DNA of 59,219 nucleotides from Candidatus Gastranaerophilales bacterium. Its GTDB lineage: Bacteria; Cyanobacteriota; Vampirovibrionia; Gastranaerophilales; Gastranaerophilaceae. The stretch lies in NCBI GenBank assembly GCA_944323595.1, contig CALUTF010000008.1, positions 1 to 59,219 on the forward strand, given 5' to 3'. The number at the start of each line of letters is the position of its first letter. Within the stretch, counting starts at the first letter, position 1. Below, piece after piece: positions 1-18,022 of the stretch. Under the pieces are notes generated by a model. That model was not told where the DNA came from. It did not search any database and was given only the letters and a program-made list of their open reading frames with translations. Both the position numbers and the translations under genes were made by a program.

Positions 1-114
1 CATTTTTTACCTTTTACCTGTTTCTTTTTTATTACTTATCCTATCGGCTCTTTCTCTCCCTTTCTTTAATCTTTTTTCCCTTTTCTTAACTTTTGTTAAC
101 GATTTTAATTTTTA

Positions 115-123
115 TGCTATTAT
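115..123 (+). promoter_or_regulatory. Extended -10 box of hom
   Basis: TGCTATTAT lies 7 nt before the hom ATG, with TTGTTA at 93-98 as a possible -35 (19-nt spacer). No Shine-Dalgarno follows, so the transcript is predicted to be leaderless. Upstream, positions 1-110 are a pyrimidine-rich stretch without an ORF. Confidence 0.5.
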
Positions 124-130
124 TAAAACT

Positions 131-1417
131 ATGGATAAGAATTTAAATAAAAACGGAAAAATTAAAATCGGCTTAATCGGTCTTGGCACCGTAGGCTCCG
201 GTGTTTATAAGACTCTGGAAGCTTTTAAAAATATCGAAGTAGTTAAAATTGCTGTTCGGAATGTTAATAAAAAAAGAAATATTCCGAATCTAGATGAATC
301 AATTATTACCGGCGACCCTTACGAGGTTGTTAATAACCCTGAAATTCAAATTGTAGTTGAACTTATCGGCGGATTGGAACCTGCTTTCGATTTGATTAAA
401 ACAGCTGTTAAAAACGGTAAACATATTGTTACAGCTAACAAGGAACTTCTTGCAAAACACGGCGAAGAATTGTTTACATTTGCAGAAAAACATAACAAAG
501 TTGTCCTTTATGAGGCTGCAATCGCAGGCGGTATTCCTATTATTATGCCTATCAAAACAATTCTTGCAGGTAACAAAATTACCCGAATAGAAGCTATCCT
601 TAACGGAACCACAAACTATATTCTGACAAAAATGGATGTCCAAGGCGCATCTTATGAACAGGTTTTGAATGAAGCACAGGCTCTCGGATATGCAGAAGCA
701 GATCCTACAGGTGATGTTGAGGGGTTTGACGCTGCTTATAAAATCACGACGCTTGCAACACTTGCGTTCAAAAAACGTATCAAAATAGAAAATGTTTACC
801 GCGAGGGAATCACAAAAATTCGTCCGGAAGATATGAAAGCTGCAAATGATTTGGGATACAAAATTAAGCTTATCGCATCCGCATATCTGGATGAATATGG
901 AAGAGCCGATGTCAGAGTTCACCCGATGCTTGTTTCCAAAAAATCAACTTTAGCACACATAGATTACGTGACTAATGCTGTAAGTCTCACAGGGCACCCT
1001 GTCGGAAGTGTTACACTCTCAGGCCCCGGAGCCGGTGAATTCCCGACAGCAAGTTCCGTTGTTGGTGATATACTTTCTATAGCAGCAGAACTAGGTACTA
1101 CTGACTATCTTCTCCCTATGATGAGATGCCAGCATGAAGATGCCGCTGAAATGATTAATATTCTTGATACCGAAAATAAATATTATATTTCTATCAATGC
1201 CCAGAACAACAAAGGGGTTATCGGTACAATAGGAACCATTTGCGCACAAAACGATATAAGTCTTGCAAGTATTGTTCAACGCTGCGTTTCTGATGATAAT
1301 ACCGCAGACATTACAGTTATCACAGAACTTGTAAAAGAAAAAAATATGCAAAATGCAATCAAACTTATTGAACAGGACGGAAATAAAGTAAACAGCATCA
1401 TAAGAGTGCAAATATAA
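131..1417 (+). CDS. hom: Homoserine dehydrogenase with ACT domain
   Basis: Reduces aspartate semialdehyde to homoserine with NAD(P)H, the entry to threonine and methionine synthesis. The Rossmann motif GLGTVGSG is at residues 17-24, the TANKELL lysine near 104, the substrate motif NGTTNYIL at 158-165, and a C-terminal ACT domain starts near residue 350, the usual site of threonine feedback inhibition. The length of 428 residues is normal for the family. thrC follows after 13 nt, so the two probably form one unit. There is no Shine-Dalgarno; an extended -10 ends 7 nt before the ATG, which points to leaderless initiation. Confidence 0.96.
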
Positions 1418-1430
1418 AGAGGAACATAAG

Positions 1431-2489
1431 ATGAGTTATTACTATCAAGGATTAATAAATACTTTCAGAGAATATCTGCCGGTTACGGACAAAACACCAG
1501 TTATAACGCTAAATGAGGGTAATACTCCCCTGATTAAAGCAGATAATCTTGCTAAAAAAATCGGCGTGGATGCTGAAATTTACTTGAAATTTGAGGGTTC
1601 AAATCCTACAGGAAGTTTTAAAGACCGCGGCATGACTATGGCAGTTTCAAAAGCAAAAGAAGACGGCGCAGGTGCCATAATCTGTGCATCTACAGGCAAT
1701 ACCTCCGCATCTGCCGCAGCTTACGGGGCTAAAGCAGGAATGAGAACTTTTGTACTTATTCCGGATGGTTATATTGCACTCGGAAAACTCTCACAGGCTA
1801 TGATGTACGGTGCGGAAATTATCGCTATTCAGGGGAATTTTGATGAAGCGCTTGAAGTTGTCAGAAACATCGCTGCAAAATACCCTGTTACGCTGGTAAA
1901 TTCCGTTAATCCTTATAGAATTGAGGGACAAAAAACAGGCGCGTTTGAAATTATAAATGCGCTCGGACAAGCCCCTGACTACCATTTCATCCCTGTAGGC
2001 AACGCCGGAAATATTACCGCGTACTGGAAAGGTTACAAGGAATGGTTTAACCTCGGTAAAATCCCTGCACTTCCTAAAATGATGGGATTTGAAGCAGAGG
2101 GCGCCGCTGCAATCGTCAAAGGCGAAAGAATTATGAAACCTGAAACGCTTGCCACTGCCATTAGAATAGGCAACCCTGCAAGCTGGAAACAGGCTGAAGC
2201 TGCACGCGATGAAAGCAACGGTATGATTAATTTTGTAACAGATGAAGAAATCGTTAAAGCATACAAACTCATTGCCTCTACAGAGGGAGTTCTTGCAGAA
2301 CCTGCAAGCGCCGCATCTGTTGCCGGATTAATTAAAGTTAAAGATAAGGTAAAATCAGGTTCAAAATGTGTTTGTATCCTGACAGGCAACGGGCTTAAAG
2401 ATCCTGACAATGCAATCAAATACTCTAATGTCGACGTTAAAAAGACTTCGTCAGATATTACTGATATCTTAAAGGTTATGAATATATAA
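1431..2489 (+). CDS. thrC: Threonine synthase
   Basis: PLP enzyme converting O-phosphohomoserine to threonine. The PLP lysine is K64 in the GSFKDRG motif, followed by the phosphate-binding STGNTSAS segment and a late GNGLKDPD motif. At 352 residues it belongs to the shorter bacterial class. AGAGGAACATAAG precedes the ATG, a normal ribosome binding site, in contrast to hom upstream. Together with hom, and with asd and dapB 33 kb away, it covers part of the aspartate family pathway; homoserine kinase is not in this window. Confidence 0.96.
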
Positions 2490-2565
2490 CCCGGCTCAGT
2501 GGTAAAAGCATAAATTTATACAGGATAATTTTGTAAAATCTAGGATTGTATAATTTTCTACTCTC

Positions 2566-2574
2566 TGGTATTAT
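2566..2574 (+). promoter_or_regulatory. Extended -10 box of the M48-like gene
   Basis: TGGTATTAT lies 6 nt before the ATG at 2581, with TTGTAT at 2547-2552 as a -35 (16-nt spacer). It has the same form as the hom promoter and implies a leaderless transcript. TATAAT at 2549-2554 is an alternative -10. Confidence 0.45.
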
Positions 2575-2580
2575 TATTAT

Positions 2581-3282
2581 ATGAAAAAGATTATTAATGT
2601 TTTAATTGCGGTACTTTTAAGCATAAATGCAGGCTTTGCCTACGAAATGACCAATGAAGAGCTCTTAAAAGATATATCAATTCAAAATGTAATTGATAAC
2701 ATCGCTTATGAGATGCTGAATGTCGGGCAAATTAAACAGAGAATGATTTTTACATACGATAAAGAAAGTAAGAAAAAACTCTTAAAAGCCAATGAATCCC
2801 TTACAAAACGCGAAATTTTGATTTATGGAGATGTTGTACAAAAAATTTCTGATAAAAATGAACTTGCCGCACTTATCGCACGTGAAATTGTTAAGGCTGA
2901 CGCCTCCTACTGGGGATATTTTAAAGGTTATGTCGGCTCTGCACAAATCAGATTTGCACCTAAAAAATATGAGATTTATTTTGACAGTGCCGCAGTAGAT
3001 TTGATGGTAAAAGCAGGTTACAATCCCATAGGTATGATTACTCTTCTGCATAAAGTTTACCCGCAGAGAAGAACCGATTTCCTATCAGCCTCAAATCTTA
3101 CCAGCAAAAGGGTTATGTATGTATATGAATATATTTACAAAACCTATCCTGAATTTCTGGCAAATAATGAGTACAGGGAAAATAAATATTATCAAAATTT
3201 TCTGTTAACCTCAACAGAAAACAGAGCCAAATTCTACGAAAAAATGAAAAATAACTCTGATGAGAAAATTAAGTATGAGTAA
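2581..3282 (+). CDS. Secreted M48-like protein with degenerate zinc site
   Basis: Function unknown. Residues 1-20 form a signal peptide ending in NAGFA. The rest resembles an M48 metalloprotease: NELAALIAREIVKA (residues 93-106) aligns with the usual zinc helix ELAAVIAHELGHA, and EIYFDSAAVDLMVKAGYNP (131-149) aligns with the third-ligand ExxxD and 'aGYdP' region. Both zinc-binding histidines of HExxH are replaced (R101, K105) while E102 and E131/D135 remain. I infer a catalytically dead M48 fold in the periplasm. The next gene overlaps its 3' end by 23 nt, suggesting a two-gene unit. Confidence 0.6.
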   Translation: MKKIINVLIAVLLSINAGFAYEMTNEELLKDISIQNVIDNIAYEMLNVGQIKQRMIFTYDKESKKKLLKANESLTKREILIYGDVVQKISDKNELAALIAREIVKADASYWGYFKGYVGSAQIRFAPKKYEIYFDSAAVDLMVKAGYNPIGMITLLHKVYPQRRTDFLSASNLTSKRVMYVYEYIYKTYPEFLANNEYRENKYYQNFLLTSTENRAKFYEKMKNNSDEKIKYE

Positions 3283-3850
3283 GTTTTTGTATATCTTAGC
3301 ATTTTTATTTATCTTTTCAGCGTCAGTTTTTGCCGCAGAACCACAAACCTGCGAACAAATTCCTGACATGCCTGAAAATCCGCTGTCCGAAAAAATTCTC
3401 ATAAAAAAATATGATTATACAAACACAACAAAAATTCCTATTTACCTGCATATAGAAAACCGTTACAAAACAAACGGTGATACAAAAGCAGGTGATGAAC
3501 TGACTTTTGTCGTATCAAGAGATGTTTACCATAACGGACAACTTCTGGTAAAACGCGGAGAGAAAACAACCGTAAAACTTACCCACTATATCCGCCGCGG
3601 GATGAACGGAATTCCATCTATTTTGATTCTTGAGGGATTTAATTTTGAAAATATTGATTCAAGAAAACTTGACGCCAGATTTATAAAACGCGGATTTGAT
3701 AATACGCTTTTTGTATTGCCGCTTAAATGGGCTCTAACATTCCTTTATCCGTTGGGTTCCTTTGCTAATTTTGTTATCGGCTGTGAAGCAAGAATTTCGC
3801 CTAAAGATGAAATCATTATCTATTATTATCCTGACTGGGTTATTGAATAG
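3260..3850 (+). CDS. Secreted protein of unknown function
   Basis: Not recognised. A signal peptide is clear (hydrophobic FLYILAFLFIFSASVFA, cleavage before AEPQTC); either ATG 3260 or ATG 3275 could start it, and neither has a strong Shine-Dalgarno. The mature part is about 170 residues, mostly beta-like (DELTFVVSRDVYHNGQLLVKRGEKTTVKL reads as a small beta domain), with one hydrophobic stretch near LKWALTFLYPLGSFANFVIG. It overlaps the M48-like gene and is probably co-expressed with it, so both may act in the envelope. Confidence 0.6.
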   Translation: MRKLSMSKFLYILAFLFIFSASVFAAEPQTCEQIPDMPENPLSEKILIKKYDYTNTTKIPIYLHIENRYKTNGDTKAGDELTFVVSRDVYHNGQLLVKRGEKTTVKLTHYIRRGMNGIPSILILEGFNFENIDSRKLDARFIKRGFDNTLFVLPLKWALTFLYPLGSFANFVIGCEARISPKDEIIIYYYPDWVIE

Positions 3851-3947
3851 ATTGTTAAATTTTGGTTAATAAATCAGCACTTCTATTAATAAAGAGTTAT
3901 AACGTACATGTAAGGAATAAATAAGAAATTTGAAAGGAGTGTTGATT

Positions 3948-4403
3948 ATGAAATTTTTAGTTAGAAAAGCACCGGAAAACTTTATAAGAACCGTTAATGA
4001 TGAAATCAGTTCTTTACTAAACAGACACTTCGACAGCTATTTTCCAGAAGCTGCCTACTGGGAAGATATGGATAAATTCTCTATGCCTGTAGAAATTACG
4101 GATAAAGGCAGAGATTATGAAGTACGTGCTGAATTGCCGGGAGTTAAAAAAGAAGATCTTGATATAGATATTGATAAAAATTACCTGACTATCAACGCTA
4201 AAAAAGAAGAAGAAAATAAAGTCGATGATAAGACTTATAAAAAATCCGAATTCAGATATGGTGAATTTTCAAGAACAGTTTATTTCCCTGAAGAAATTAA
4301 TGTTGAAAAAACCGAAGCTAAACTTGAACATGGTGTCTTGAAAATTGACGCACCTAAAAAATATACTGAAAACGAATCTAAAAAGAAATTAACTGTTAAA
4401 TAA
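3948..4403 (+). CDS. Small heat shock protein, Hsp20 family
   Basis: ATP-independent holdase chaperone. The alpha-crystallin domain spans roughly residues 40-140: YEVRAELPGVKKEDLDIDIDKNYLTI and the C-terminal LEHGVLKIDAPK are the family signatures. The ATG at 3948 is chosen because AAAGGAG lies 9 nt upstream; an in-frame TTG at 3930 would extend it without a binding site. 151 residues is typical. A perfect 15-bp hairpin terminator follows. A second Hsp20 is encoded at 8467-8946 on the other strand. No convincing CIRCE operator is visible. Confidence 0.93.
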   Translation: MKFLVRKAPENFIRTVNDEISSLLNRHFDSYFPEAAYWEDMDKFSMPVEITDKGRDYEVRAELPGVKKEDLDIDIDKNYLTINAKKEEENKVDDKTYKKSEFRYGEFSRTVYFPEEINVEKTEAKLEHGVLKIDAPKKYTENESKKKLTVK

Positions 4404-4433
4404 AGATTCCACGATAAACATTAAGTAACGTAG

Positions 4434-4470
4434 GCACCTCTGATTTTATAAAATCAGAGGTGCTTCTTTG
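4434..4470 (+). terminator. Rho-independent terminator after hsp20
   Basis: Perfect inverted repeat 4434-4463 (arms GCACCTCTGATTTTA and its complement, no unpaired base) followed by TTCTTTG. It can serve the plus-strand hsp20 and, in the other direction, sits just past the end of the 4518 gene. Confidence 0.85.
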
Positions 4471-4517
4471 TAGAAATACTAATAAAATCTCTACATTAAC
4501 ATAAGAATATTTACAGC

Positions 4518-6134
4518 TTATTGTTTAAAAGCCTCAAAAGCTACCGGAAGATTGTCATGAATATCAGGACGAATATTTAACTGTTCGCCGCCTATAGCGT
4601 TCTGATGTTTCTTTTTATATTCCGCCACAGCAATATTGAATAATGGAACCATAAAACCAAGAGCAACAGTTGAATATGCCAGCCCTGTAAGATGTGCGAC
4701 ATTTAACTTCCACATATTATTACGCGCAAAAGCGCTTCCCTTAGCGGCAATTTCAGTATGAGATTTCAGGGTAATATCATTAAGCCAATGCTTTAAACCT
4801 TTGCCCTGTTTATTTATATTGAACAAAAATTCTTTTTTCTTATCAAGCAGATTGGCAGCTCCCTTAGCAGCAAAACCGCCGAGCACAAGCCAGTTTAGAA
4901 AACCAAAATAATCTCTTGTAACAGATTCTCTGAGTTCCGTATCATTGTCTGCTGCCATAAATCTGCCAACAAGAGTAGAAGTATAGACTGTTTTTATGGC
5001 ATTTCCGCTTGATATCGGCCCTGTAAATTCAAGTTTTCTGATAAAATCTTTAGGGCTTTTTATCCGCATAACCCCTATTGCCATAGCAATAATTCCTGCA
5101 CTTGCCGCAAGTTTTCTAAAGAAAAATCCCGTTCCTTTCTTTTCTTCTTCAACCTTTGCCGCAATACCTGTAACTGATGATTCATAATCTATATCACCGA
5201 CAAATTTTGTTGAACCGGTCCGTTTTTTGGTTATCTGGCGGTTAATATACTGGTTTGTAAGCCCTAAAACAGACGCAAGACTTAATGCACCCAGAATTTT
5301 TACTTTATTTACCTTTGTAATTTTTTCAAGAGCCGCATCTATATTTACATTGGGATTTGTAAAAATATCTTTTCCCATATCGTATGTATCACGAATAATA
5401 TTTGAAAGTGTTGCATTCATAGAATACTTTCCTGATGTAACATCAACACTTCTGTTTACACCGAGAGCATTTGTCACTCTGGCTTCCAACAAACGGAAAA
5501 TATTCTTTCTGTCGCCATTTGAAATATCATCACTTTTGATAACATCCACAAGCGTATTTACTATTCCGTCACCTGTTTTTAATTTTTCCTGAATATTTTT
5601 ATAAGCAGGGTTTTCCCACTTAATTTTTCCCCAGCTTTTTTCATCAATCCATTCAACATTTTTCCAGTTAATATCATTCCAGGTTACAACTTTATCACCG
5701 TCATGACCTTTCATTCCGCCGAAAACATTTTTGACATACCCGCGTAACCCGTCAGAACTTCTGTCCCATGAATTTTTCAGTACCATTAATGAATCATTAG
5801 AAAACCAGCTTTTGCTGTTAATATTAACTTTAGGATTTATATACCGGCAGGCGAGTTTAGCAATAGGAATTGCAAGAAGTCCCGCAGACAAACAGTTAAT
5901 AAATGTTCCGCAAATTTCACGGAAAAAAGTTTCTGAACCTGCATATTTGTTACGTTTCTTTGTATCAATATATGTTCTCGGGATAACCATAGCACCGACA
6001 TCAAGAGCAACGGCATTCATCATTTCGTTTGTATCAAGTGTTCTGAAAGTATTTGTAACTATCCCGTCTAAAGGTCCTTTAAAAGCCGGTTTGTAAGCTT
6101 GTTTTGTCTGATAATTCTGTACTGCTAAATCCAT
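4518..6134 (-). CDS. Membrane protein with N-terminal PAFKG tag, attenuator controlled
   Basis: Function unknown; 538 residues. The N terminus carries KPAFKG (about residues 15-20), the P-x-F-x-[GA] tag seen in other orphans here. Hydrophobic segments occur near residues 75-95, 280-300, 345-362, 410-430 and 480-505, so it is probably an inner-membrane protein with a long soluble part (about 100-270). Residues 390-440 (GRFMAAD, then ELRES, TR, GFAAKGAANLL) align with residues 291-335 of the divergent 6638-7981 protein, and both end in -[AI]KQ/-FKQ, suggesting paralogy. GGAG precedes the ATG. Its leader holds a Ser-rich peptide and a terminator. Confidence 0.65.
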   Translation of the reverse strand: MDLAVQNYQTKQAYKPAFKGPLDGIVTNTFRTLDTNEMMNAVALDVGAMVIPRTYIDTKKRNKYAGSETFFREICGTFINCLSAGLLAIPIAKLACRYINPKVNINSKSWFSNDSLMVLKNSWDRSSDGLRGYVKNVFGGMKGHDGDKVVTWNDINWKNVEWIDEKSWGKIKWENPAYKNIQEKLKTGDGIVNTLVDVIKSDDISNGDRKNIFRLLEARVTNALGVNRSVDVTSGKYSMNATLSNIIRDTYDMGKDIFTNPNVNIDAALEKITKVNKVKILGALSLASVLGLTNQYINRQITKKRTGSTKFVGDIDYESSVTGIAAKVEEEKKGTGFFFRKLAASAGIIAMAIGVMRIKSPKDFIRKLEFTGPISSGNAIKTVYTSTLVGRFMAADNDTELRESVTRDYFGFLNWLVLGGFAAKGAANLLDKKKEFLFNINKQGKGLKHWLNDITLKSHTEIAAKGSAFARNNMWKLNVAHLTGLAYSTVALGFMVPLFNIAVAEYKKKHQNAIGGEQLNIRPDIHDNLPVAFEAFKQ

Positions 6135-6154
6135 ATTTTCTTTTTTTCTCCATT

Positions 6155-6252
6155 AAAAAAGTCCCGCCTTACTGACGGGACTTAATCTATTTTATAAACT
6201 TTGCTGCATTAAAACTTCTTCATCACACGCAAAACTCTAAAATAAGTCCCGT
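6155..6252 (-). promoter_or_regulatory. Transcription attenuator with Ser-rich leader peptide
   Basis: On the minus strand, AAGTCCCG (6183-6176) and CGGGACTT (6166-6159) form an 8-bp hairpin followed directly by six T, a terminator only 20 nt before the 4518-6134 start codon. The upstream leader ORF contains ACGGGACTTA (6252-6243), which can pair over 10 bp with TAAGTCCCGT, the 5' arm of the terminator, to form an antiterminator. A ribosome stalled at the Ser run (6282-6265) would leave that element free; one reaching the stop would not. This is the architecture of classical amino-acid attenuation. Confidence 0.7.
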
Positions 6253-6309
6253 TGGAAACTTATTCGAATTGGAGGAGGATGAATTTGTTAATGCTGTTAA
6301 ATTAATCAT
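6223..6309 (-). CDS. Leader peptide, Ser/Asn-rich (28 aa)
   Basis: Starts at ATG 6309 with AAGGAAAAATA immediately before it and stops at TGA 6225-6223. The middle reads TNSSSSNSN, with codons TCA TCC TCC TCC AAT TCG, placed about 20 nt before the antiterminator element that lies in codons 20-23. Position, ribosome binding site and spacing fit a regulatory leader peptide rather than a functional protein. Confidence 0.6.
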   Translation of the reverse strand: MINLTALTNSSSSNSNKFPTGLILEFCV

Positions 6310-6333
6310 TATTTTTCCTTGTTTATGTTTTAT

Positions 6334-6363
6334 ATAATACGCCAACAAAAATTTTTTTGTCAA
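6334..6363 (-). promoter_or_regulatory. Promoter for the Ser-leader/4518 transcript
   Basis: TTGACA (6363-6358) and TATTAT (6339-6334) with an 18-nt spacer on the minus strand. Predicted start near 6327, about 18 nt before the leader ATG. Confidence 0.65.
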
Positions 6364-6391
6364 TAGGTGTACTGTATACAATTCATATATA

Positions 6392-6418
6392 TTGACATAA
6401 ATTTTTATTTTTTATACT
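6392..6418 (+). promoter_or_regulatory. Promoter for the Met-leader/6638 transcript
   Basis: TTGACA (6392-6397) and TATACT (6413-6418), 15-nt spacer. It diverges from the promoter at 6334-6363; the two -35 boxes are 28 nt apart. The region 6135-6637 contains no other gene than the two leader ORFs. Confidence 0.5.
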
Positions 6419-6446
6419 CTCTAATTAAGAAAAAAGGAAAAATATT

Positions 6447-6536
6447 TTGAATATACGTTCTTTTGAAAAAATGTCAGATATGATGATGGATATGCAAATG
6501 ATGATGTGCATGTCAGCTTCAGTCTGCCGAATGTGA
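6447..6536 (+). CDS. Leader peptide, Met-rich (21 or 29 aa)
   Basis: From ATG 6471 the peptide has 21 residues, 10 of them Met and 2 Cys; its core is MMMDMQMMMCM, followed by SASVCRM and TGA. An in-frame TTG at 6447 has AAGGA 8 nt upstream, within the same 11-nt sequence AAGGAAAAATA that precedes the Ser leader on the other strand, so TTG is my preferred start (29 residues). A Met run in front of a terminator/antiterminator is what a methionine-sensing leader would look like. Confidence 0.65.
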   Translation: MNIRSFEKMSDMMMDMQMMMCMSASVCRM

Positions 6537-6598
6537 TGAACATTTTTTCAAAATTAACAGATTGGAGCTGACGGTAATTAAACGGGTCAGCTTTTTTT
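6512..6598 (+). promoter_or_regulatory. Transcription attenuator with Met-rich leader peptide
   Basis: AGCTGAC (6566-6572) and GTCAGCT (6586-6592) form a terminator stem followed by seven T ending at 6598. Inside the leader ORF, 6512-6524 (GTCAGCTTCAGTC) can pair with 6560-6572 (GATTGGAGCTGAC) over 13 bp with two G-U pairs, a longer helix than the terminator and mutually exclusive with it. Stalling on the early Met codons (6480-6488) would expose 6512-6524 and allow read-through into the gene at 6638; completion of the peptide would mask it and allow termination. Confidence 0.72.
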
Positions 6599-6637
6599 AT
6601 GCGTGTATTACAAAATTTTATAGAGGAATTAAAAATT

Positions 6638-7981
6638 ATGGCATCTGATTATAATGTTACATTTACTGCAAAAACTCCACGTAATATGAGTAAAATTTCA
6701 AAAGATTTACTTGACAATCTCACACCGAAGAAAAGATTTCTGGCAAAAGTAATAGATATGAAAGAGGGGGATTCAGGCCTTTCACATTCAAGATTTGCAC
6801 AGGCAACAGCCACCAACTGGCTGCCTAAAGCTGTATTTGCCAGAAGTTTTGCGGATCTGGCAGAAATAAGTTTTTTAGAAATATTTGAATCTGCACTGTT
6901 TTTCTATCTTCCGTCAATAATGGGAGAATATCTTTCCCGCAGAAAAATCTTCTCCAAATTTCTGCCGGAGAATCTGAGAAAAGATGTTTCCAAACCTGTA
7001 TCAGAGCTGGTGAATACGCCCGCCGCAAAAAAACTTCTGCCGGTCAAAGCTGGAATTGTAATGAGTTGTGCCGCAATTCCTGCTGCGGAATACGGATTGA
7101 GTTTCGCCAAGAATCTTTTTACCCAGAAATTATTTCACAAAGCAGATTTTAGCAACGTAGTTAATCTTGATAAAGAAAAAAAAGAAGACCCGAAAGTGCA
7201 TGAAAGAGTAGAAAAAAGCGCAATTTCACATTTAAAAAAAGCCGGTCTGTTTTCAGCTGCGGCATTTGGAGCAAGCTTAGTCCTTGCAGGTGCAGGGCAA
7301 AAAAGCAGCGCCATCAGAAAAGCCTGTGAAATATTTTTAAATCCCGGAGCAAAAATTTATCAGGGGCTGGAAAAAGCAGGTGTAAAATCGAAAGGATTGA
7401 AAAATTTTCTGGATACTTACATAAATCTGGATTTTGCAAGAAAATCAGACGGTTCATTAGCCCTCGGAAACGGACAGCTTGCAGTAACTGTATTATCAGG
7501 AGTCGCAGGATATTTTGATGCAGCAAAAGACCGCGGGAAACTTGAAGTACAGGAGGTCGCAACAAGAGTTCCGGTAATTGCCCTGTATACAATATTCGGA
7601 AGCACTCTTTTTGATGCAGGATTTAAAAAATTACTGCATAACAAAGGCAAGTATCCGGAAATTTTGTCTGCAGATTTGAAAACAGCATCACTGAATGATA
7701 TTCCTAAAATAGCAAAACAACTTGCCGGTGATGATAAAAATCTATACAGGCAAAAAATAGGAGAACTTTTCAAGGGCAAAGCAGTTATCGCAATGGTTCC
7801 GTTTTTATTCAGTCTGCTTGTTGTGGGCGGTCTGCTAGCACTTATTTCACGCATCTGGACACAATACCGCTATAATCACGGAGTAGGCAACCCTCATTTT
7901 AACAAGCAAACACAGAATGCCGGTTTTAATACGCTTAAACCCTCTAAAGACAGCCCTTTTACTTCATTCATAAAACAGTAA
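6638..7981 (+). CDS. Membrane protein, paralogue of the 4518-6134 product
   Basis: Function unknown; 447 residues from ATG 6638, which has GAGGAA upstream (an in-frame ATG at 6599 abuts the attenuator T-run and is less likely). The N terminus has VTFTAKTPRN, a variant of the short tag of the neighbours. Hydrophobic segments lie around residues 70-90, 130-150, 205-225, 310-330 and 380-405; the last is followed by YRYNHGVGNPHFN. Residues 291-335 (GYFDAAKDRGKLEV... ATR... FDAGFKKLL) align with residues 390-440 of the divergent neighbour. The gene meets the HTH gene on the other strand stop to stop. Confidence 0.62.
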   Translation: MASDYNVTFTAKTPRNMSKISKDLLDNLTPKKRFLAKVIDMKEGDSGLSHSRFAQATATNWLPKAVFARSFADLAEISFLEIFESALFFYLPSIMGEYLSRRKIFSKFLPENLRKDVSKPVSELVNTPAAKKLLPVKAGIVMSCAAIPAAEYGLSFAKNLFTQKLFHKADFSNVVNLDKEKKEDPKVHERVEKSAISHLKKAGLFSAAAFGASLVLAGAGQKSSAIRKACEIFLNPGAKIYQGLEKAGVKSKGLKNFLDTYINLDFARKSDGSLALGNGQLAVTVLSGVAGYFDAAKDRGKLEVQEVATRVPVIALYTIFGSTLFDAGFKKLLHNKGKYPEILSADLKTASLNDIPKIAKQLAGDDKNLYRQKIGELFKGKAVIAMVPFLFSLLVVGGLLALISRIWTQYRYNHGVGNPHFNKQTQNAGFNTLKPSKDSPFTSFIKQ

Positions 7982-8188
7982 TTATCTATCGGCAGTGTAG
8001 CGTAATATATCCTGAGTTGTACATTCCAGCGCCCAGCACAACCTGTCTATTGTTTTAAAATCAATACGGGTTGTGTTGTTGTGATATAAGTTATAAACGG
8101 TAGTGTAGTCAAGCTGTGCAAGTCTTGAAACTTCCTTTATATTTAGTCTTTTTTCGCCTAACAAGGCGGATAATCTGTTGGTTATCAT
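7982..8188 (-). CDS. Small XRE/Cro-type HTH regulator
   Basis: 68 residues, essentially only a helix-turn-helix: MITNRLSALLGEKRLNIKEVSRLAQLDYTTVYNLYHNNTTRIDFKTIDRL has the XRE order of helices, with recognition helix around residues 27-37, and ends in CWALECTTQDILRY, typical of the small Cro/C1 subfamily. ATG 8188 is chosen since a TTGTCA-N18-TATACA promoter on the minus strand ends just before it; the frame is open back to 8245. It lies between the attenuator-controlled membrane protein and a structured RNA region, and may act on either; no operator is evident. Confidence 0.75.
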   Translation of the reverse strand: MITNRLSALLGEKRLNIKEVSRLAQLDYTTVYNLYHNNTTRIDFKTIDRLCWALECTTQDILRYTADR

Positions 8189-8319
8189 ATAAATACCATT
8201 GTATATTTTCAGATGCATCTTGTTGACAAATTGGAACATGTCCAATATAATATCGAGTATTAGACAAAATAATCGTAATATCGATTAATAATTCCAACAA
8301 ATACTTAAATTCTTTTGGT

Positions 8320-8470
8320 AAAAAGAGGCGTCATTACAACGCCTCCTTCTTTTGACTGCGAATTTAAGACAGGTAATCGTGCAGACCCGTCTGCAGTCAA
8401 GTAACGGAACTCATCGCCTTATTTTGCACGCCCGCACAGTCGCGGGAGAACTGCGACGAATTGTTCCTAG
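8320..8470 (-). ncRNA. Structured GC-rich RNA downstream of hsp20
   Basis: About 150 nt clearly richer in GC than the flanks. Reading the minus strand it folds into three units: a nested stem GGAAC...GTTCC enclosing CGTCGC/GCGATG (one G-U) and CCCGC/GCGGG; a stem TTGACTGC...GCAGTCAA enclosing GCAGAC/GTCTGC; and a terminator GAGGCGT/ACGCCTC (arms at 8325-8331 and 8339-8345) followed by TTTTT. It starts at the hsp20 stop codon, so it may be a 3'-UTR-derived or independent small RNA. I cannot match it to tmRNA, SRP RNA or RNase P. A perfect AGGAGG followed by ATG and a 9-codon ORF overlaps the terminator. Confidence 0.5.
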
Positions 8471-8946
8471 TCATTGATAGCCAATTTTTTGGGTTCTTTA
8501 TTGGCTTGTTCCTGTTTCGGGATTGTTATATTCAAAATGCCGTCTTTGTATCTGGCAGTTGCTTCATCGGTTTTTACGGGTGTATCAAAAGATATTGTTC
8601 TCTGATACTTTCCGTAACGAAATTCACTTGTGTGATAGCGTTCATTTTTTTCGTGTTCTTTTTTCTCTTCTTTTTCTTCTTCAATTGTTGCTGTTATTGT
8701 CATAAAGTCATTATCAAGTTCAACTTCAATATTATCTTTGGGAACCCCCGGAAGCTGAACTTTTACTTTATAGTTTGCGTCATTCTGTTTAATTTCAACA
8801 GCAGGACGCCAGACAGATTTCTTTTTAATATTCAGCGGGTTAGCAAATGTATTCACAAGTAATGTATCACGAAGAAAATTGTTCAATTCCTGATGGATAC
8901 TATCAAAATATAAATCAGGTTCACGAATTATTAAATCATGTTTCAT
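8467..8946 (-). CDS. Small heat shock protein, Hsp20 family
   Basis: Second Hsp20 of the window, 159 residues. Alpha-crystallin core around residues 48-150: YKVKVQLPGVPKDNIEVELDNDFMTI, then SEFRYGKYQRTISF and YKDGILNITIPK. The linker EEEKEEKKEHEKNE between strands is unusually charged and longer than in the 3948-4403 protein. AGGAG lies 9 nt before the ATG. It is transcribed away from the 2-hydroxyacid dehydrogenase gene and runs into the structured RNA element at its 3' end. Confidence 0.93.
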   Translation of the reverse strand: MKHDLIIREPDLYFDSIHQELNNFLRDTLLVNTFANPLNIKKKSVWRPAVEIKQNDANYKVKVQLPGVPKDNIEVELDNDFMTITATIEEEKEEKKEHEKNERYHTSEFRYGKYQRTISFDTPVKTDEATARYKDGILNITIPKQEQANKEPKKLAIND

Positions 8947-9096
8947 CGGGTTTTGCTCCTTTCACATTATCAGAATAAAAAATTTCAGAGCGTATTTCAT
9001 TGCCGTATATAGCAAAAATTTACTCCAATATATTAAACTTTAGAGCAATAGAATAAAAAGCAGATTAAGGATAATTTAATGAAGAGGAGAAAGTTT

Positions 9097-10131
9097 ATGT
9101 CGGTAAAAATGCTAATATTTGATTACAGAGAATCTGAACAACGGTATTTTAATGAACACGGCGGAGAACTTAACAGTTTTGACATAAGTTTTTACAAAAA
9201 CAGTTTAAACCGCGACACTGTAGAAAATCTTTCATCAGAAGAAAGAGATAATACAGCAGTAATAAGTGTGTTTATAGATTCCGTTGTAGACAGTGAAGTA
9301 ATCAGCAGATTTAAAAATCTGCGGGTAATTTCAACACGCTCGACAGGGATAGATCATATTGATAAAAAAGCCTGTGAAGAACGGAATATTATGCTTGTGA
9401 ATGTAGAAAATTACGGATCTACAACGGTCGCACAATTTACATTAGGATTATTAATTGCGCTTGTCAGAAATATAATTCCTGCGGATTTGTCGATAAGATA
9501 CAAAAATTTCTGCGACTACAATTTTATGGGGAGGAATTTGGGTTATCTGACACTTGGAATAATAGGTACAGGTGCCATCGGTGCAAATTTATTCAATTAT
9601 GCGTCTGCATTCGGAATGAAAATTCTTGCTTATGATTTGAAACCAAAACTGGAGCTTATAGAAAAACAAAATATTGAATATGTTGAATTACCGGAATTGC
9701 TGCGGAATTCCGATATTATTTCACTTCATATTCCATATACCGGCGACAATTACCATCTCCTCGGGGAAGAACAATTCAACATGATGAAAGACGGCGTAAG
9801 GATAATAAACACCTCCCGCGGCGAATTGATAGATATTAAAGTTCTGCATAATCTATTGCTAAGCGGCAAAGTAAAAGGAGCTGCACTGGATGTTTTAGAA
9901 TGTGAAGATATTTCGTTTAAATGCGAAAAACTAGCAGAAAATATGGGAGATGTCGGATTAACATGTTTTGAAGAAGCAAATATAGTAAAAAAAATGGCAG
10001 AACTTCCAAATGTTATAATAACCCCGCACATCGCCTATGATACACAGGATGCTATAGATTACATTTTGAAAGTAACAATAAATGCAATAAAAGATTCTCT
10101 ATCCGGTAGCAGTCAATATCGAATTGTTTAG
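9097..10131 (+). CDS. D-2-hydroxyacid dehydrogenase (D-lactate dehydrogenase-like)
   Basis: NAD-dependent interconversion of a 2-ketoacid and D-2-hydroxyacid; the sequence is closest in style to D-lactate dehydrogenases. NAD-binding GTGAIG sits in the Rossmann domain (about residues 156-161), the catalytic Arg in NTSRGELID, the Glu in DVLECED and the His in ITPHIAYDT near residue 320. Start ATG 9097 is preferred because GAGGAGAAAG lies just upstream; the in-frame ATG 9079 overlaps that site. In a fermentative cell a role in pyruvate reduction is plausible, but vancomycin-type (VanH) or other ketoacid substrates cannot be excluded. It converges with ubiE/menG, overlapping by 4 nt. Confidence 0.85.
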   Translation: MSVKMLIFDYRESEQRYFNEHGGELNSFDISFYKNSLNRDTVENLSSEERDNTAVISVFIDSVVDSEVISRFKNLRVISTRSTGIDHIDKKACEERNIMLVNVENYGSTTVAQFTLGLLIALVRNIIPADLSIRYKNFCDYNFMGRNLGYLTLGIIGTGAIGANLFNYASAFGMKILAYDLKPKLELIEKQNIEYVELPELLRNSDIISLHIPYTGDNYHLLGEEQFNMMKDGVRIINTSRGELIDIKVLHNLLLSGKVKGAALDVLECEDISFKCEKLAENMGDVGLTCFEEANIVKKMAELPNVIITPHIAYDTQDAIDYILKVTINAIKDSLSGSSQYRIV

Positions 10132-10790
10132 CGTTTCATAACCGTAGCACACATCATATTCAGGGCATAAAAATTTTGTGTGACGTATTTTAGTCCGCGC
10201 GTTTGAAATTTATCCACAAGCTCCTGCGGATTAAAATACTCCTGTTTTGATTTAACAAGATATTCATAAGGAACTGTATTGTTGTAAAATACATGCACCA
10301 AAAAAGGTACAAACATGTCAAAAATAAAATCTCCTGCAGGATTTGTTTTACTGAAATCAAGATGCATAAAAATGCCGTCAGGTTTTAATACTCTTATAAC
10401 TTCGTCAATAGCAAGATTTGCATTTTCAATATTTCTAAGCCCGAATCCCATTGTAACAAGGTCAAATGTTTCATCTTCAAACGGCAGATTAGTACAATCG
10501 CATTGTATAAATTCAGCCTCCGGCACTTTAAGTCGGGCGCGGACAAGCATTTTTTCAGAAAAATCCACGCCTGTAACTCTGCCGCGTGACTTAAGAAAAT
10601 ACGCTAAATCTCCGGTTCCTGTGCACAAATCAAGAATTTTTGCATCAGGCACAATATCCGGTAAATCATTTATTGCCTGTTTTTTACCGTATTTATGTGT
10701 CCCGAAAGAAATTATGCCGTTTATAAAATCATAGCGGGCAGCAATAGAATCAAACATTTTGCGAATTTTTTCGGGATTTTTAGAGGTCAT
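10128..10790 (-). CDS. ubiE: Demethylmenaquinone/ubiquinone methyltransferase
   Basis: SAM-dependent C-methyltransferase of quinone synthesis (UbiE/MenG). Signatures: FDSIAARYDFINGIISFGTHKYGKK at the N terminus, SAM-binding ILDLCTGTGDLAYFL, and FGLRNIENANLAIDEVIRVLKPDG. The frame is open to 10964, but that would overlap the divergent gene; ATG 10790 gives 220 residues and the expected N terminus MTSKNPEKIRKMFD. Its presence suggests a menaquinone, or that the enzyme serves another methylation in an anaerobe. The 47-bp gap to the divergent gene holds both promoters. Confidence 0.9.
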   Translation of the reverse strand: MTSKNPEKIRKMFDSIAARYDFINGIISFGTHKYGKKQAINDLPDIVPDAKILDLCTGTGDLAYFLKSRGRVTGVDFSEKMLVRARLKVPEAEFIQCDCTNLPFEDETFDLVTMGFGLRNIENANLAIDEVIRVLKPDGIFMHLDFSKTNPAGDFIFDMFVPFLVHVFYNNTVPYEYLVKSKQEYFNPQELVDKFQTRGLKYVTQNFYALNMMCATVMKR

Positions 10791-10803
10791 ATTCTTTAAC
10801 TTT

Positions 10804-10831
10804 TTGCTTTTTTTGTATATTAACATATAAT
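10804..10831 (+). promoter_or_regulatory. Promoter of the DUF4127 gene
   Basis: TTGCTT (10804-10809), 16-nt spacer, TATAAT (10826-10831), then only 6 nt to the ATG at 10838, without a Shine-Dalgarno; leaderless transcript predicted. Confidence 0.55.
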
Positions 10832-10837
10832 AAAGAA

Positions 10838-12160
10838 ATGAAAATAGCATTTTTGCCGATAGATAACAGACCTGTATGCTACACTCTGCCAGTACAAATT
10901 GCACGAATTGACAGGTGTATAGAATTCTGCATTCCGGAAAGACGACTTCTGGGAGATTTAACAATGCAGGCGGATATAAGCGGACTTTTCAAATGGCTTG
11001 AAGAAATCAATAAATGCGATGCTATTATCCTTTCACTTGACACTATAGCATACGGCGGTTTAATCCCGTCACGGCGCTCTGTAGAAACATTTGAAGAGAT
11101 AAAAGACAGAATAGAACGGCTTAAAAAAGTCTTGCAATCAAAAAATGCAAAGATTTATGCATTTTCAAGTATAATGCGGATTTCCAATAACAATATAAAC
11201 GAGGAAGAAAAAGAATACTGGTCCCGCTGGGGCAAAAAAATTTTTGACTACTCGTACCAGACGCATAAACTCGGCTGCGAAAGCTGTATTGCAAACATTA
11301 TTCCGGCAGAAATTCTTGATGATTACATGGCAACCCGAAAACGAAATTTTGAGATAAACAAAATCTATCTTGAATGGCAAAAAGAGGGGCTATTGGATAC
11401 TCTTATTTTTTCAAAAGACGATTGCGCGGAATACGGATTTAATGTACAGGAAGCGCAGGCACTGGAAAAACTTGGCGGATTTACAAAAACAGGTGCCGAC
11501 GAAATTCCGCTTACACTTCTTGCAAGAGCCTGCGGAAATCCTGTCAAAATTGCACCTGTCTTTCTAGCACCGGACTGCAAAGATTTGATATCAAACTACG
11601 AGGATGTTTCAATAGAAAAATCCGTCACGGGGCAGATTGAACTTGCCGGATGCACGGTGACTAAACCTGAAAATGCAGACATTTTACTTTATATAAACAA
11701 TTTTGAAGAACATCAGGGCGAAATTGTAATGAATAAAGGCACAAAACCTTTTGACGGAATCTGGCAAAAACCTGATAAACCATATATGATAGCGGACGTC
11801 AGATATGCAAACGGAGCAGATAATGCATTTGCCGAACAGGTTATAAACAATGGTTTTGACAAAAATTTCTACGGGTATTCCGCGTGGAATACATCCGCAA
11901 ACACTTTAGGCAGCCTGATTTGCGCTGCAAAAATTAAATTCTGTGCAAAAGACTACGATGAAGATGCATTCAAAGCACTTGAAGCAACCCGCCTGCTGGA
12001 TGATTGGGGCTATCAGGCAAATGCACGCCAGTCAGATGAGAAAATAAAGTATGCAATGCATCCTTTTGAAGAGAGAGTAAACAAATTTTTAGGCACTGAT
12101 TTCATGCCGGAATACAAATTCCCGTGGAACAGACGTTTTGAGGTAGAAATTATATTATGA
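10838..12160 (+). CDS. DUF4127 family protein
   Basis: Biochemical role unknown. The start KIAFLPIDNRPVCYTLPVQIA, followed by PERRLLGDL, LSLDTIAYGGLIPSRRS and FSSIMRISN, is the hallmark of DUF4127, a cytoplasmic family otherwise common in Firmicutes; the conserved Asp, Arg and Ser residues suggest an enzyme. 440 residues is slightly shorter than the roughly 500 usual. It overlaps mntP by 4 nt (ATGA), so the two are translationally coupled. The transcript appears leaderless. Confidence 0.85.
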   Translation: MKIAFLPIDNRPVCYTLPVQIARIDRCIEFCIPERRLLGDLTMQADISGLFKWLEEINKCDAIILSLDTIAYGGLIPSRRSVETFEEIKDRIERLKKVLQSKNAKIYAFSSIMRISNNNINEEEKEYWSRWGKKIFDYSYQTHKLGCESCIANIIPAEILDDYMATRKRNFEINKIYLEWQKEGLLDTLIFSKDDCAEYGFNVQEAQALEKLGGFTKTGADEIPLTLLARACGNPVKIAPVFLAPDCKDLISNYEDVSIEKSVTGQIELAGCTVTKPENADILLYINNFEEHQGEIVMNKGTKPFDGIWQKPDKPYMIADVRYANGADNAFAEQVINNGFDKNFYGYSAWNTSANTLGSLICAAKIKFCAKDYDEDAFKALEATRLLDDWGYQANARQSDEKIKYAMHPFEERVNKFLGTDFMPEYKFPWNRRFEVEIIL

Positions 12161-12705
12161 GCATAATATCAATAATTTTTCTTGCAATAGCTTTGGGTAT
12201 AGACTGTCTTGTTGTGTCGTTTTCGCAAGGGTTAATTTTCACATCAAAGCGCACAAAAAATTCACTGGCGCTTGCATTCACAATGGGGCTTTTTCAGGGC
12301 TTAATGCCTGTTATCGGTTACATCGGAGCAGATGTAATCCACAAATATGTAGAAACATTCAGTCACTGGGTTGTTTTCGGAATATTTTTAATATTAGGAT
12401 TAAAATTTATCTTTGAAGCTTTTCAGGAAAAAGAGGAAGAAATCTGCTGTATAGGACTTAAATGCCTGCTCGGGATGGGACTGGCAACAAGTATAGACGC
12501 ACTTGTAGCCGGAGCAAGCCTTAACTTCACAGGAACACCGCTGCTGCTTTCAGCTTTAATAATCGGTTTCGCATCATTTGTTATGTCACTATGCGGCTTC
12601 TGGTTTGGAAATTTTTTCAAAAAATTCCCCTCCAAATACCTTGAAATAACAGGCGGGATAATTCTGGTAATCCTTGCCGTCAAAGCCCTCAGACCTGAGG
12701 GATAA
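12157..12705 (+). CDS. mntP: Manganese efflux pump MntP-like
   Basis: Six-helix inner-membrane protein of 182 residues. Two MntP repeats are visible: ALGIDCLVVSFSQGL near the N terminus and GMGLATSIDALVAGASLNF in the second half, each with the conserved intramembrane Asp (the pairs in GID and SID) that define the family. It may equally be the YtaF branch. Coupled to the DUF4127 gene by an ATGA overlap. No manganese (yybP-ykoY) riboswitch is visible upstream. Confidence 0.82.
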   Translation: MSIISIIFLAIALGIDCLVVSFSQGLIFTSKRTKNSLALAFTMGLFQGLMPVIGYIGADVIHKYVETFSHWVVFGIFLILGLKFIFEAFQEKEEEICCIGLKCLLGMGLATSIDALVAGASLNFTGTPLLLSALIIGFASFVMSLCGFWFGNFFKKFPSKYLEITGGIILVILAVKALRPEG

Positions 12706-12732
12706 GAACAACATTAATCATATTCTGACAAA

Positions 12733-13560
12733 TTATAACGGCCCCGGTGCCTGTTTAAGATTAGAAAAATTGGTTGAATATTTATATCCGAATTTATCGG
12801 CATTTGCTTTCCAAAAATCATTAATGCTTTTTGCTGCAGTGCCGTTTTTTATAATTTCATTTTCTAACACACCGATTCGCTGCACTAATTTCTGATTATT
12901 TAAAAGTTTGCGCCCCGCATCTATTGTTTTTTGCCCTGATAAAAGTTCATTATTAATTGCGGCATGCATCATTTTACGGACACTATCTCTTAAGGGAGAA
13001 GGGAAAAATTTTGCCCACATTTTAGTAAATTTTTCAAGTGCGGTAGCAGAGGTGCCGACACGGCTAGCCAGTTCAAAAAATTCACGCATTTTGACCGGCA
13101 GAAAATTATAAAACTTTTTGTCCTGCTTTTCTTCCAGCATAGAGTATTCACCATCTTTATTAAAAGCAATCATCCTTTTAAATCTATGCCCTACCTGCGT
13201 CAAAAAATCCGCAAGACTAAGCGGCAGTGTGCCGCCATCATATAAATCAGGATGCCCGTGAATAAAATTAGCAGCCTCAAAATGTTTATCAGCAAAATTG
13301 GAAGTATCAATTTTGTTAAAGTCTCCGTTAATCTCCGCTAAAACTCTGTTCTTTTTAATAATTATTCCTTTTTCAAAAGGCAAATCTGAATTTAATGCCT
13401 GAAGAACTCTGTTTTTAGCATAAGAATACGCAGCACCCGGATTTTGGAAATTTATCACGCCATCAGGTCTGATCCAGCCAAGAGTTGAAGTATCTAACGT
13501 TTTTATATTAACTTTAGAATTAAAAAGTTTCGGGGATAAAACTGAGTGAAAGTTTAACAT
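12733..13560 (-). CDS. Orphan protein with JAMM-like motif
   Basis: Not a recognised family. 275 residues from ATG 13560, which has AGGAG 10 nt upstream; the frame is open to 13647. The segment PFEKGIIIKKNRVLAEING followed by NFIHGHPDLYDGGTLPLSLADF (about residues 100-120) fits the JAMM/MPN metalloprotease pattern E...H-x-H-P-x(10)-S-x-x-D, and GEYSMLEE after it fits a closing strand. The remaining 150 residues are helical. No signal peptide. A cytoplasmic metal-dependent isopeptidase-like function is possible but unproven. It sits 6 nt downstream of priA, facing the same way. Confidence 0.5.
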   Translation of the reverse strand: MLNFHSVLSPKLFNSKVNIKTLDTSTLGWIRPDGVINFQNPGAAYSYAKNRVLQALNSDLPFEKGIIIKKNRVLAEINGDFNKIDTSNFADKHFEAANFIHGHPDLYDGGTLPLSLADFLTQVGHRFKRMIAFNKDGEYSMLEEKQDKKFYNFLPVKMREFFELASRVGTSATALEKFTKMWAKFFPSPLRDSVRKMMHAAINNELLSGQKTIDAGRKLLNNQKLVQRIGVLENEIIKNGTAAKSINDFWKANADKFGYKYSTNFSNLKQAPGPL

Positions 13561-13653
13561 GTAAAATATACTCCTGTCGCTCACATGAAAAAGCCTGAAA
13601 AATAAATTTTGCTTTTTCCGTCCATCCCGCGTAACATTATTTAACAAAAATAA

Positions 13654-15948: not shown

Positions 15949-15965
15949 AATTTAATTTTTAGAAC

Positions 15966-16047
15966 TAATAAGTGAATAAATTCGTTAATACGCTGACCCG
16001 TCAAATATCAATTTGAAACAGTATGATAACAACTTATTCACTTATTA
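15966..16047. repeat. Separated 14-bp inverted repeat between priA and PC4-like gene
   Basis: TAATAAGTGAATAA (15966-15979) and its exact complement TTATTCACTTATTA (16034-16047), 54 bp apart, with a further partial copy TTCATTTATTAAC at about 16053-16065. It could be an operator or a stem in the leader of priA. No T-run follows either arm. Confidence 0.5.
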
Positions 16048-16074
16048 ACCCGTTCATTTATTAACTTTCAATAA

Positions 16075-16305
16075 CTACTCAGCCATAAATTCTTTTTTAG
16101 CTTCTTCAATGGCTTCAGAGAGAATATCAAGCTGTTCAGGCGCAAATGTGACACCTTTTTTAGTCGGCAGCCATGTTGCACCGTCATCTGTTGTATAGAA
16201 AATTCTCAGGTTGAAATAACTTTTACCTTTGTATTCACTTACTGAAATTTGCAATTGTTCAGTATCATTTCTCTGAATTGTAGCCAAAATTTTAGAATCT
16301 GCCAT
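16075..16305 (-). CDS. PC4/YdbC-like ssDNA-binding protein
   Basis: 76 residues. The middle, LQISVSEYKGKSYFNLRIFYTTDDGATWLPTKKGVTFAPEQLDILSEAIEEA, matches the transcriptional-coactivator PC4 fold of bacterial YdbC proteins: beta strands with conserved aromatic and basic residues, a W-x-PTKKG turn, and a final helix. Members bind single-stranded DNA, usually as dimers. ATG 16305 is chosen because GGAG lies 7 nt before it. The divergent purB starts 80 bp away. Confidence 0.8.
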   Translation of the reverse strand: MADSKILATIQRNDTEQLQISVSEYKGKSYFNLRIFYTTDDGATWLPTKKGVTFAPEQLDILSEAIEEAKKEFMAE

Positions 16306-16369
16306 TCTCAATCTCCTTATAATAAAAACTTAGTACAACTAAAATGATATCACAAATAAACGGATTTTA

Positions 16370-16378
16370 TGGTAAAAT
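16370..16378 (+). promoter_or_regulatory. Extended -10 box of purB
   Basis: TGGTAAAAT ends 7 nt before the purB ATG at 16386; no Shine-Dalgarno and no clear -35. Probable leaderless transcript. Confidence 0.5.
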
Positions 16379-16385
16379 AAAACTT

Positions 16386-17675: not shown

Positions 17676-17736
17676 AAATCTTGCTTTATCGGTTAAGATA
17701 AGCTAAAATTTTGATACAAAGAGGTAATAAAAAATT

Positions 17737-17985
17737 ATGGCAAAGTTAAATATATCTGTATGCATGGGAAGTTCTTGTTTTGCCCGCGGCAACAATGAGA
17801 ACCTTGAATTTATAGAAAAATATATTAAAGATAATCATCTGGAAGCAGAAATAGATATAACCGGCACACGCTGCGAAGGTAAATGCGCCACCGGTCCTAA
17901 CATCGTAATTAACGGAATTGAATACAGCGAAGTAGACATCGATAAACTTCAAAATATCCTTGCCGAAGCCGCTCAAATTAAATAA
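17737..17985 (+). CDS. Thioredoxin-like [2Fe-2S] ferredoxin
   Basis: 82-residue NuoE/HoxE-type domain. Cysteines CMGSSC near residue 10 and CEGKCATGPN near residue 50 are the four ligands of the thioredoxin-like 2Fe-2S fold. It is the first gene of the hydrogenase operon and probably passes electrons between NAD(P)H- or ferredoxin-linked partners and the H-cluster protein encoded next. GAGGTAATAAAAAATT precedes the ATG. A paralogue is encoded at 20923-21189. Confidence 0.85.
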   Translation: MAKLNISVCMGSSCFARGNNENLEFIEKYIKDNHLEAEIDITGTRCEGKCATGPNIVINGIEYSEVDIDKLQNILAEAAQIK

Positions 17986-18022
17986 AACATAAAAAAATTT
18001 TAATAGATAATCAGGAGTTTAT

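Follow-up and report, generated by a model that had tools for sequence, protein, structure and literature searches.

Our analysis of a 59,219-nucleotide stretch of DNA (the window) from Candidatus Gastranaerophilales bacterium, the host of the leader region at 6447-6598, suggests that this region is a transcription attenuator of the trp/his type that responds to methionine through the ribosome. The product of the controlled gene would be one of a lineage-specific set of paralogous helical proteins, probably membrane-embedded; each paralog would be governed by an attenuator with its own amino-acid specificity and be depleted in, or nearly free of, that residue. Judging from sequence, and leaving any claim about uptake aside, we regard the combination of Met-responsive attenuation with a set of residue-purged paralogs as very probably correct. 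The original prediction had proposed the attenuator but overlooked its membership in a set, which comprises Met, Trp, Ser, Cys, His and possibly Arg attenuators.

The methionine leader and its competing helices

The elements of the region, and the gene that follows it, are these:

6392-6418, plus strand: candidate promoter, TTGACA (6392-6397) and TATACT (6413-6418) with a 15-nt spacer
6434-6438, plus strand: Shine-Dalgarno sequence AAGGA of the leader peptide, 8 nt 5' of TTG 6447, retained in sister loci
6447-6536, plus strand: Met-rich leader peptide ORF of 29 codons, MNIRSFEKMSDMMMDMQMMMCMSASVCRM, with a TTG start and a TGA stop (6534-6536)
6512-6526, plus strand: antiterminator 5' arm (region 2), GTCAGCTTCAGTCTG, within the leader coding sequence, 15 bp with 6558-6572
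6558-6572, plus strand: antiterminator 3' arm, CAGATTGGAGCTGAC, whose 3' part (6564-6572) is the 5' arm of the terminator (region 3)
6564-6598, plus strand: intrinsic terminator, stem 6564-6572/6586-6594 with its last pairs inside the T-run (6592-6598)
6638-7981, plus strand: controlled gene, 447 aa, family F1, Met-leader clade, Met-poor and predicted all-helical

The short ORF, both pairings and the T-run described in the original prediction are all present in the sequence, and its count of 10 Met and 2 Cys in the 21 codons from ATG 6471 to the TGA at 6534-6536 is correct. That count was made from ATG 6471, but TTG 6447 is probably the actual start, because AAGGA lies 8 nt upstream of it and the TTG is retained in sister genomes, while ATG 6471 has no Shine-Dalgarno sequence. 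The candidate promoter further upstream is absent from the scanner's listing of 16-18-nt spacers because its own spacer is short, at 15 nt; the sister loci L009 and L010 carry TTGACA and TATAAT with identical spacing. At the other end of the region, position 6638, the one given in the original prediction, is a better gene start than the in-frame ATG 6599, since the latter overlaps the T-run of the terminator and the sister genome G002 has no ATG there. The terminator between leader and gene consists of a stem of 7-9 bp followed by T7, and is also found in relatives.

The competing pairing claimed for the leader coding sequence is real, and is in fact 15 bp long (6512-6526/6558-6572) rather than 13. 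This helix includes two G-U pairs; its energy is -22.9 kcal/mol, whereas that of the terminator (6564-6572/6586-6594) is -11.7. When the leader was shuffled 2000 times with its dinucleotides preserved, no shuffle matched the native pairing with the 6558-6572 arm. When 6512-6526 is available, the minimum-energy fold of 6512-6596 contains the long helix; when 6512-6526 is masked, the fold is the terminator.

We infer from this arrangement the following mechanism. With ample Met-tRNA, the ribosome would pass the Met codons and cover or pass region 2 (6512-6526); with region 2 thus blocked, region 3 (6558-6572) would pair with region 4 (6586-6594), and transcription would stop in the T-run. When charged Met-tRNA is scarce, the ribosome would stall at the ATG codons in 6480-6506, leaving region 2 free at most stall positions. 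Region 2 would then capture region 3, the terminator would be blocked, and the gene at 6638 would be transcribed, i.e., expressed in Met starvation.

The Met run is nearly unique in the host. The pattern ATGATGATGN{0,9}ATGATG occurs twice in the 2.05-Mb genome, and the second occurrence (L201) lies out of frame within a protein gene. A scan of the whole window for the combination of residue-run leader, terminator and gene yielded the Met case and one comparable case, a Ser leader; the two leaders lie on opposite strands of one intergenic region.

Conservation and co-variation in relatives

Among orthologs of the Met clade, a Met-rich leader followed by a terminator was found in 40 non-redundant loci in 17 genera of the family, as counted from the genus labels given to the sampled genomes of that family. 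Two further loci (L171 and L173), in another family of the order, also have a Met-rich leader and a terminator. The leaders of the 40 loci contain a median of 8 Met, start excluded; MTKNNNTMMMQMMMCGSFRGGHCSASRMC and MNKYSVKTMNMMAMMSMQMMMCMPTLACRM are examples from relatives.

The stem sequences differ between genera (AGCTGAC, GCCGGC, GGACCGC, AAGCCACC and others). The leader segment 3' of the Met run varies together with the stem, such that leader arm and terminator arm remain complementary. Pairing of the leader arm with the terminator 5' arm exceeds that of shuffles in 31 of the 40 Met loci (p<=0.05). Nine loci fail this test, about half of them from genus g2, though a weaker arm can still be seen; two g27 loci, L045 and L062, are degenerate or shortened. 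The cognate leader arm also outpairs arms swapped in from other Met loci, with a median rank of 0.09 (Wilcoxon p 6e-7). It had been stated in advance that Met-responsive attenuation would be contradicted if relatives lacked the Met run or the pairing, and compensatory changes in the arms had been named as a check on it; both run and pairing are kept, and the arms co-change while the stems differ between genera.

These data bear on the notion that an A+T-rich leader produced the Met run and the pairing by chance. Weak hairpins and short ORFs are frequent enough, but conservation across 17 genera, co-changing arms and a run pattern that is nearly unique in the genome make chance scarcely credible.

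The distances involved are also those that an attenuator needs. A stalled ribosome is taken to cover about 15 nt past the first P-site base, and in the Met loci region 2 starts a median of 13 nt past the last Met codon of the run (interquartile range 8-14), i.e., just past the estimated reach of the stalled ribosome. Each of the 31 loci with significant pairing has at least two Met codons at which a stalled ribosome would not touch region 2. By a hand count, a ribosome that has arrived at the stop codon would reach region 2 in the window locus, and it would do so in 14 of the 31 significant loci. In the other 17 it would fall short of region 2, so the OFF state there would require tempo or another pairing.

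Probable sister attenuators and depletion of the cognate residue

The Ser leader found in the window scan belongs to a divergent neighbour of the F1 gene, with the following elements:

4518-6134, minus strand: F2 gene, 538 aa, Ser-leader clade, divergent neighbour
6159-6183, minus strand: terminator of the Ser attenuator, AAGTCCCGTCAGTAAGGCGGGACTT plus a T-run
6223-6309, minus strand: Ser-run leader peptide, MINLTALTNSSSSNSNKFPTGLILEFCV, of the divergent F2 gene, with Ser or Cys runs in relatives
6243-6253, minus strand: AACGGGACTTA, the antiterminator arm for the Ser leader, with a duplex energy of -15.1 kcal/mol (z -6.1)

Orthologs of this F2 gene have Ser runs in 21 loci, a count that includes L130, which automatic recognition had missed, and Cys runs in nine. 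The Cys-run orthologs occur in genera g16, g35 and g40, and their proteins are lower in Cys and higher in Ser. Cys-run leaders also precede the members of a paralog group, F2b. Most of the Cys-run leaders in Gastranaerophilales have terminators and antiterminator arms.

Within F1, the paralogous clade has Trp leaders with WW or WWW, such as MNYIQQNKTQNWWWLQKRAGTFCWR and MRNNLSNLNRNWWRL, laid out as in the Met leaders, and antiterminator pairing is significant in 29 of 37 of these loci. Trp leaders are also present in two other families of the order. The weak F1 paralogs L097-L103 have no such leader upstream. Four Trp-leader loci of genus g25 (L095, L096, L110 and L190) carry a palindrome around TATCGATATATCGATA just 5' of the leader, which is probably a regulator site additional to attenuation.

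Residue-run leaders elsewhere in the host genome were sought with Met, Cys and His patterns. Of the matches to the Cys-codon pattern, 20 were read and none was a convincing leader. The His-codon pattern led to a third family, F3, with His-rich leaders in all 33 loci read; in eight of the His-leader loci the script found no terminator. The His leader of the host genome itself, MILRTAKLHHHHHSFLKRL, is at L229 (contig G000:C54, near 2722, minus strand), 5' of an F3 gene, and L231-L260 are further His-leader F3 loci, whose proteins have 0-2 His per approximately 430 residues. At L261 (G034:C93), two tandem His-rich short ORFs lie 5' of an F3 relative; the first ends in HHHHN*, followed by a terminator-like hairpin, so that this locus is possibly a double attenuator.

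Antiterminator pairing was significant in 20 of 20 Ser, 12 of 18 Cys and 23 of 25 His loci tested. Region 2 lies within the leader coding sequence in the Met and Ser cases and in some of the Cys and Trp cases.

Arg-rich short ORFs (NIRR.., MMNLRRRRIR..) were seen 5' of F3b genes at L262-L277, and the F3b proteins are low in Arg; the assignment to Arg is tentative and was partly made after the composition was known. Most of these loci also have a short ORF with the conserved end L(M)NLxWGL*, whose stop lies 4-29 nt before the F3b gene. F3b may be under Arg control with a second, translational uORF.

The occurrence of other runs in the same layout also bears on whether the short ORF is instead a functional Met-rich peptide, metal-binding or residing in the membrane, with the hairpin a mere intergenic terminator. 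Peptides rich in Met and Cys can bind copper, and the ORF has a good Shine-Dalgarno sequence. RNA pairing, on the other hand, dictates much of the peptide outside the run: the GG residues in the C-terminal part of the leader peptides arise because the GGTGGT or GGCGGT arms follow the terminator arm. Furthermore, runs of W, S, C or H stand in an identical layout before related proteins, which fits codon sensing and does not fit metal binding. We consider a functional peptide very improbable.

Depletion of the cognate residue in the encoded proteins is observed in each set. The 41 Trp-leader proteins contain three Trp in total (0.02%), compared with 0.62% in the Met-leader paralogs, and at three columns where the Met clade typically has Trp, corresponding to window-protein residues 61, 308 and 407, the Trp clade has Leu, Leu and Phe, respectively. 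The 33 His-leader F3 proteins contain eight His (0.06%). In the Cys-leader F2b proteins Cys amounts to 0.04%, and nine of the 10 proteins have none; Cys-leader F2 proteins have 0.21% Cys versus 0.57% in their Ser-leader orthologs. Ser constitutes 4.5% of Ser-leader F2 proteins versus 7.1-7.8% in the other F2 groups. Internal Met is 0.79% in Met-leader proteins, 1.41% in the Trp clade and approximately 2.4% in most F2 groups; unlike that of Trp and His, the depletion of Met is moderate, about 3-fold.

When all 20 residues are ranked by depletion, the cognate residue comes first in five of the six sets and third in the remaining one. In genomes with both F1 paralogs (n=22), the Trp-leader copy has less Trp than the other in 22 of 22 and the Met-leader copy has less Met in 20 of 22; since the groups represent few independent lineages, these statistics show consistency rather than many independent events. 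Depletion is an independent pointer to expression during starvation for the residue concerned, and we propose that a protein so depleted can still be made once the supply of that amino acid is exhausted. L080/L199 (G015:C33), which belongs to the Met clade, has an Ile-rich leader (IAIISLIIIS) and 16 internal Met versus about 3.5; this single case on a long branch is possibly a change of specificity from Met to Ile.

Composition also helps to define what the leader in the window would sense. The original prediction allowed for Cys as an alternative ligand, and one can extend this to a signal that is mainly Cys or general translation stress (antibiotic, slow translation) instead of Met. The leader does have two Cys codons, Cys is also low in Met-leader proteins (0.43%), and a stall at any codon of the run would act alike. 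The Cys codons, however, vary in number and place between loci and are not the conserved part, whereas the Met runs are conserved; true Cys-run leaders (CCCC) exist separately within the lineage; and no residue is more depleted in the product than Met. Sensing of Cys or of general stress is accordingly improbable, and Met remains the preferred signal.

Known systems and possible function of the products

Ribosome-mediated transcription attenuation is classic for biosynthetic operons, as in the trp, his, thr, phe and leu leader-peptide attenuators of Proteobacteria. The Gastranaerophilales leaders share with these a short ORF with regulatory codons, mutually exclusive arms and a T-tailed terminator before the controlled gene. 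They differ in using Met, Ser and Cys besides Trp and His, and in that the target is an uncharacterised family instead of a biosynthetic operon or a tRNA synthetase. T-box and SAM riboswitches, which control Met transport and synthesis, likewise provide amino-acid-specific control beyond biosynthesis genes, with a predictable substrate; in Gastranaerophilales, by contrast, sensing would proceed through a translated leader. T-box-controlled transporters have been described (PMC2494555). An Rfam scan of positions 1-20000 of the window gave no match at the gathering score, including none to a T-box or SAM riboswitch.

In Mycobacterium, Cys-codon leader peptides precede cys operons, and a conserved terminator was not found there (PMC1262725); such leaders are also the subject of Canestrari 2020, as cited in PMC13236596. 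There, as presumably in Gastranaerophilales, a run of Cys codons reads the Cys supply, but the Cys leaders of Gastranaerophilales mostly have terminators and control an uncharacterised protein. In bacilli, His leader peptides precede hisZ/hisS* (PMC2965389), again combining a His run with a terminator outside Proteobacteria and placing attenuators on paralogs. The target in bacilli is a gene of the tRNA synthetase type, whereas in Gastranaerophilales it is a protein nearly free of His. Biosynthetic enzymes show a low cognate bias (PMC4209129), and Chlamydia has Trp-rich and Trp-poor protein sets (PMC3937554). The common element is that proteins required under starvation are poor in the amino acid that is lacking; elsewhere this bias is found in unrelated enzymes, while here paralogs are each purged of their own leader's residue.

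The regulatory principle is already known. What is new is the lineage, the use of Met and Ser runs, the fact that the targets are uncharacterised, and the match between attenuator specificity and residue-purged paralogs. The literature searched, which included few subscription journals, describes neither these leaders in Gastranaerophilales or Melainabacteria nor Met-run attenuators of this kind. A textbook mechanism of biosynthetic control would here wire paralogs to single amino acids, in non-photosynthetic gut relatives of cyanobacteria. Because the upstream RNA and the downstream composition are independent of each other and yet agree, the inducing condition of each gene can be predicted and directly tested. 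Families F1, F2 and F3 thereby gain a first functional handle, and the cognate-bias hypothesis gains a clean natural case in which the paralogs serve as controls.

Of 191 genomes sampled from the host family, 101 contain F1, 163 contain F2 and 172 contain F3; in a sample of the order, F1 is present in 159 of 286. The named relatives of the F1 gene are Candidatus Gastranaerophilales MAGs, and in a sample of 292 genomes from the phylum the F1 matches listed all fall within the same order. A tree of 93 F1 proteins, made by a quick method, has two clades, the Met-leader clade with the window gene and the paralogous one, at about 40% identity.

Searches of Pfam, NCBIfam and PDB with the product sequences gave nothing useful, with stray Pfam matches in one or two members and no match to a known transporter family. 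The product matches no known family; so far as this can be judged, the original prediction was correct in placing the controlled gene outside Met biosynthesis. AlphaFold models of F1 (pLDDT 87, pTM 0.83) and F2 (84.5 and 0.82) are mostly helical. Foldseek and VIA-align with the F1 model, and Foldseek with the F2 model, returned no significant fold match; prenyl-synthase and OprM-like entries were rejected as common helical arrangements. The hydrophobic segments of F1 are moderate, except for one strong segment close to the C terminus, and a membrane location, as originally suggested, is plausible. An internal repeat is marginal in F1 (E 0.004) and clearer in F3, where the N-terminal half matches the C-terminal half with E 5e-7. 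F2 and F3 are related (E 3e-6), while F1 and F2 show no similarity by blastp and a marginal one only by profile. A comparison of F1 with F3 did not show kinship either, so that a common origin is likely for F2 and F3 alone.

The repeated helical halves, together with the wiring to single amino acids, suggest uptake of the cognate amino acid. Our leading guess, a tentative one, is that each protein imports or scavenges the amino acid to which its attenuator would respond. Stated more fully, and with similar reserve, F1, F2 and F3 might be amino-acid scavenging membrane proteins, each paralog assigned to and purged of its leader's residue; the leader would name the substrate, and a change of role would show as a switch of leader (Ser/Cys, Met to Ile). 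The main rival to uptake, itself possible though by no means favoured, is that the products are not transporters but starvation stand-ins for an abundant envelope or growth-control protein, each having lost one residue so that its synthesis could continue when that residue is scarce. Leaderless F2 homologues in tandem, the near absence of the cognate residue, and lysine-rich, moderately hydrophobic segments are in line with such a role. It leaves unexplained, however, why F1, F2 and F3 serve different amino acids, and a transporter or an enzyme would be expected to show the same depletion (PMC4209129).

The leaderless F2 homologues (F2c, L157-L165) are often in tandem, e.g., at G000:C22, G018:C8 and G036:C24, and are possibly housekeeping forms. 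Genes that by eye resemble small heat-shock proteins (HSP20-type) flank the F1/F2 pair of the window, at 3930-4403 (plus strand) and 8467-8946 (minus strand).
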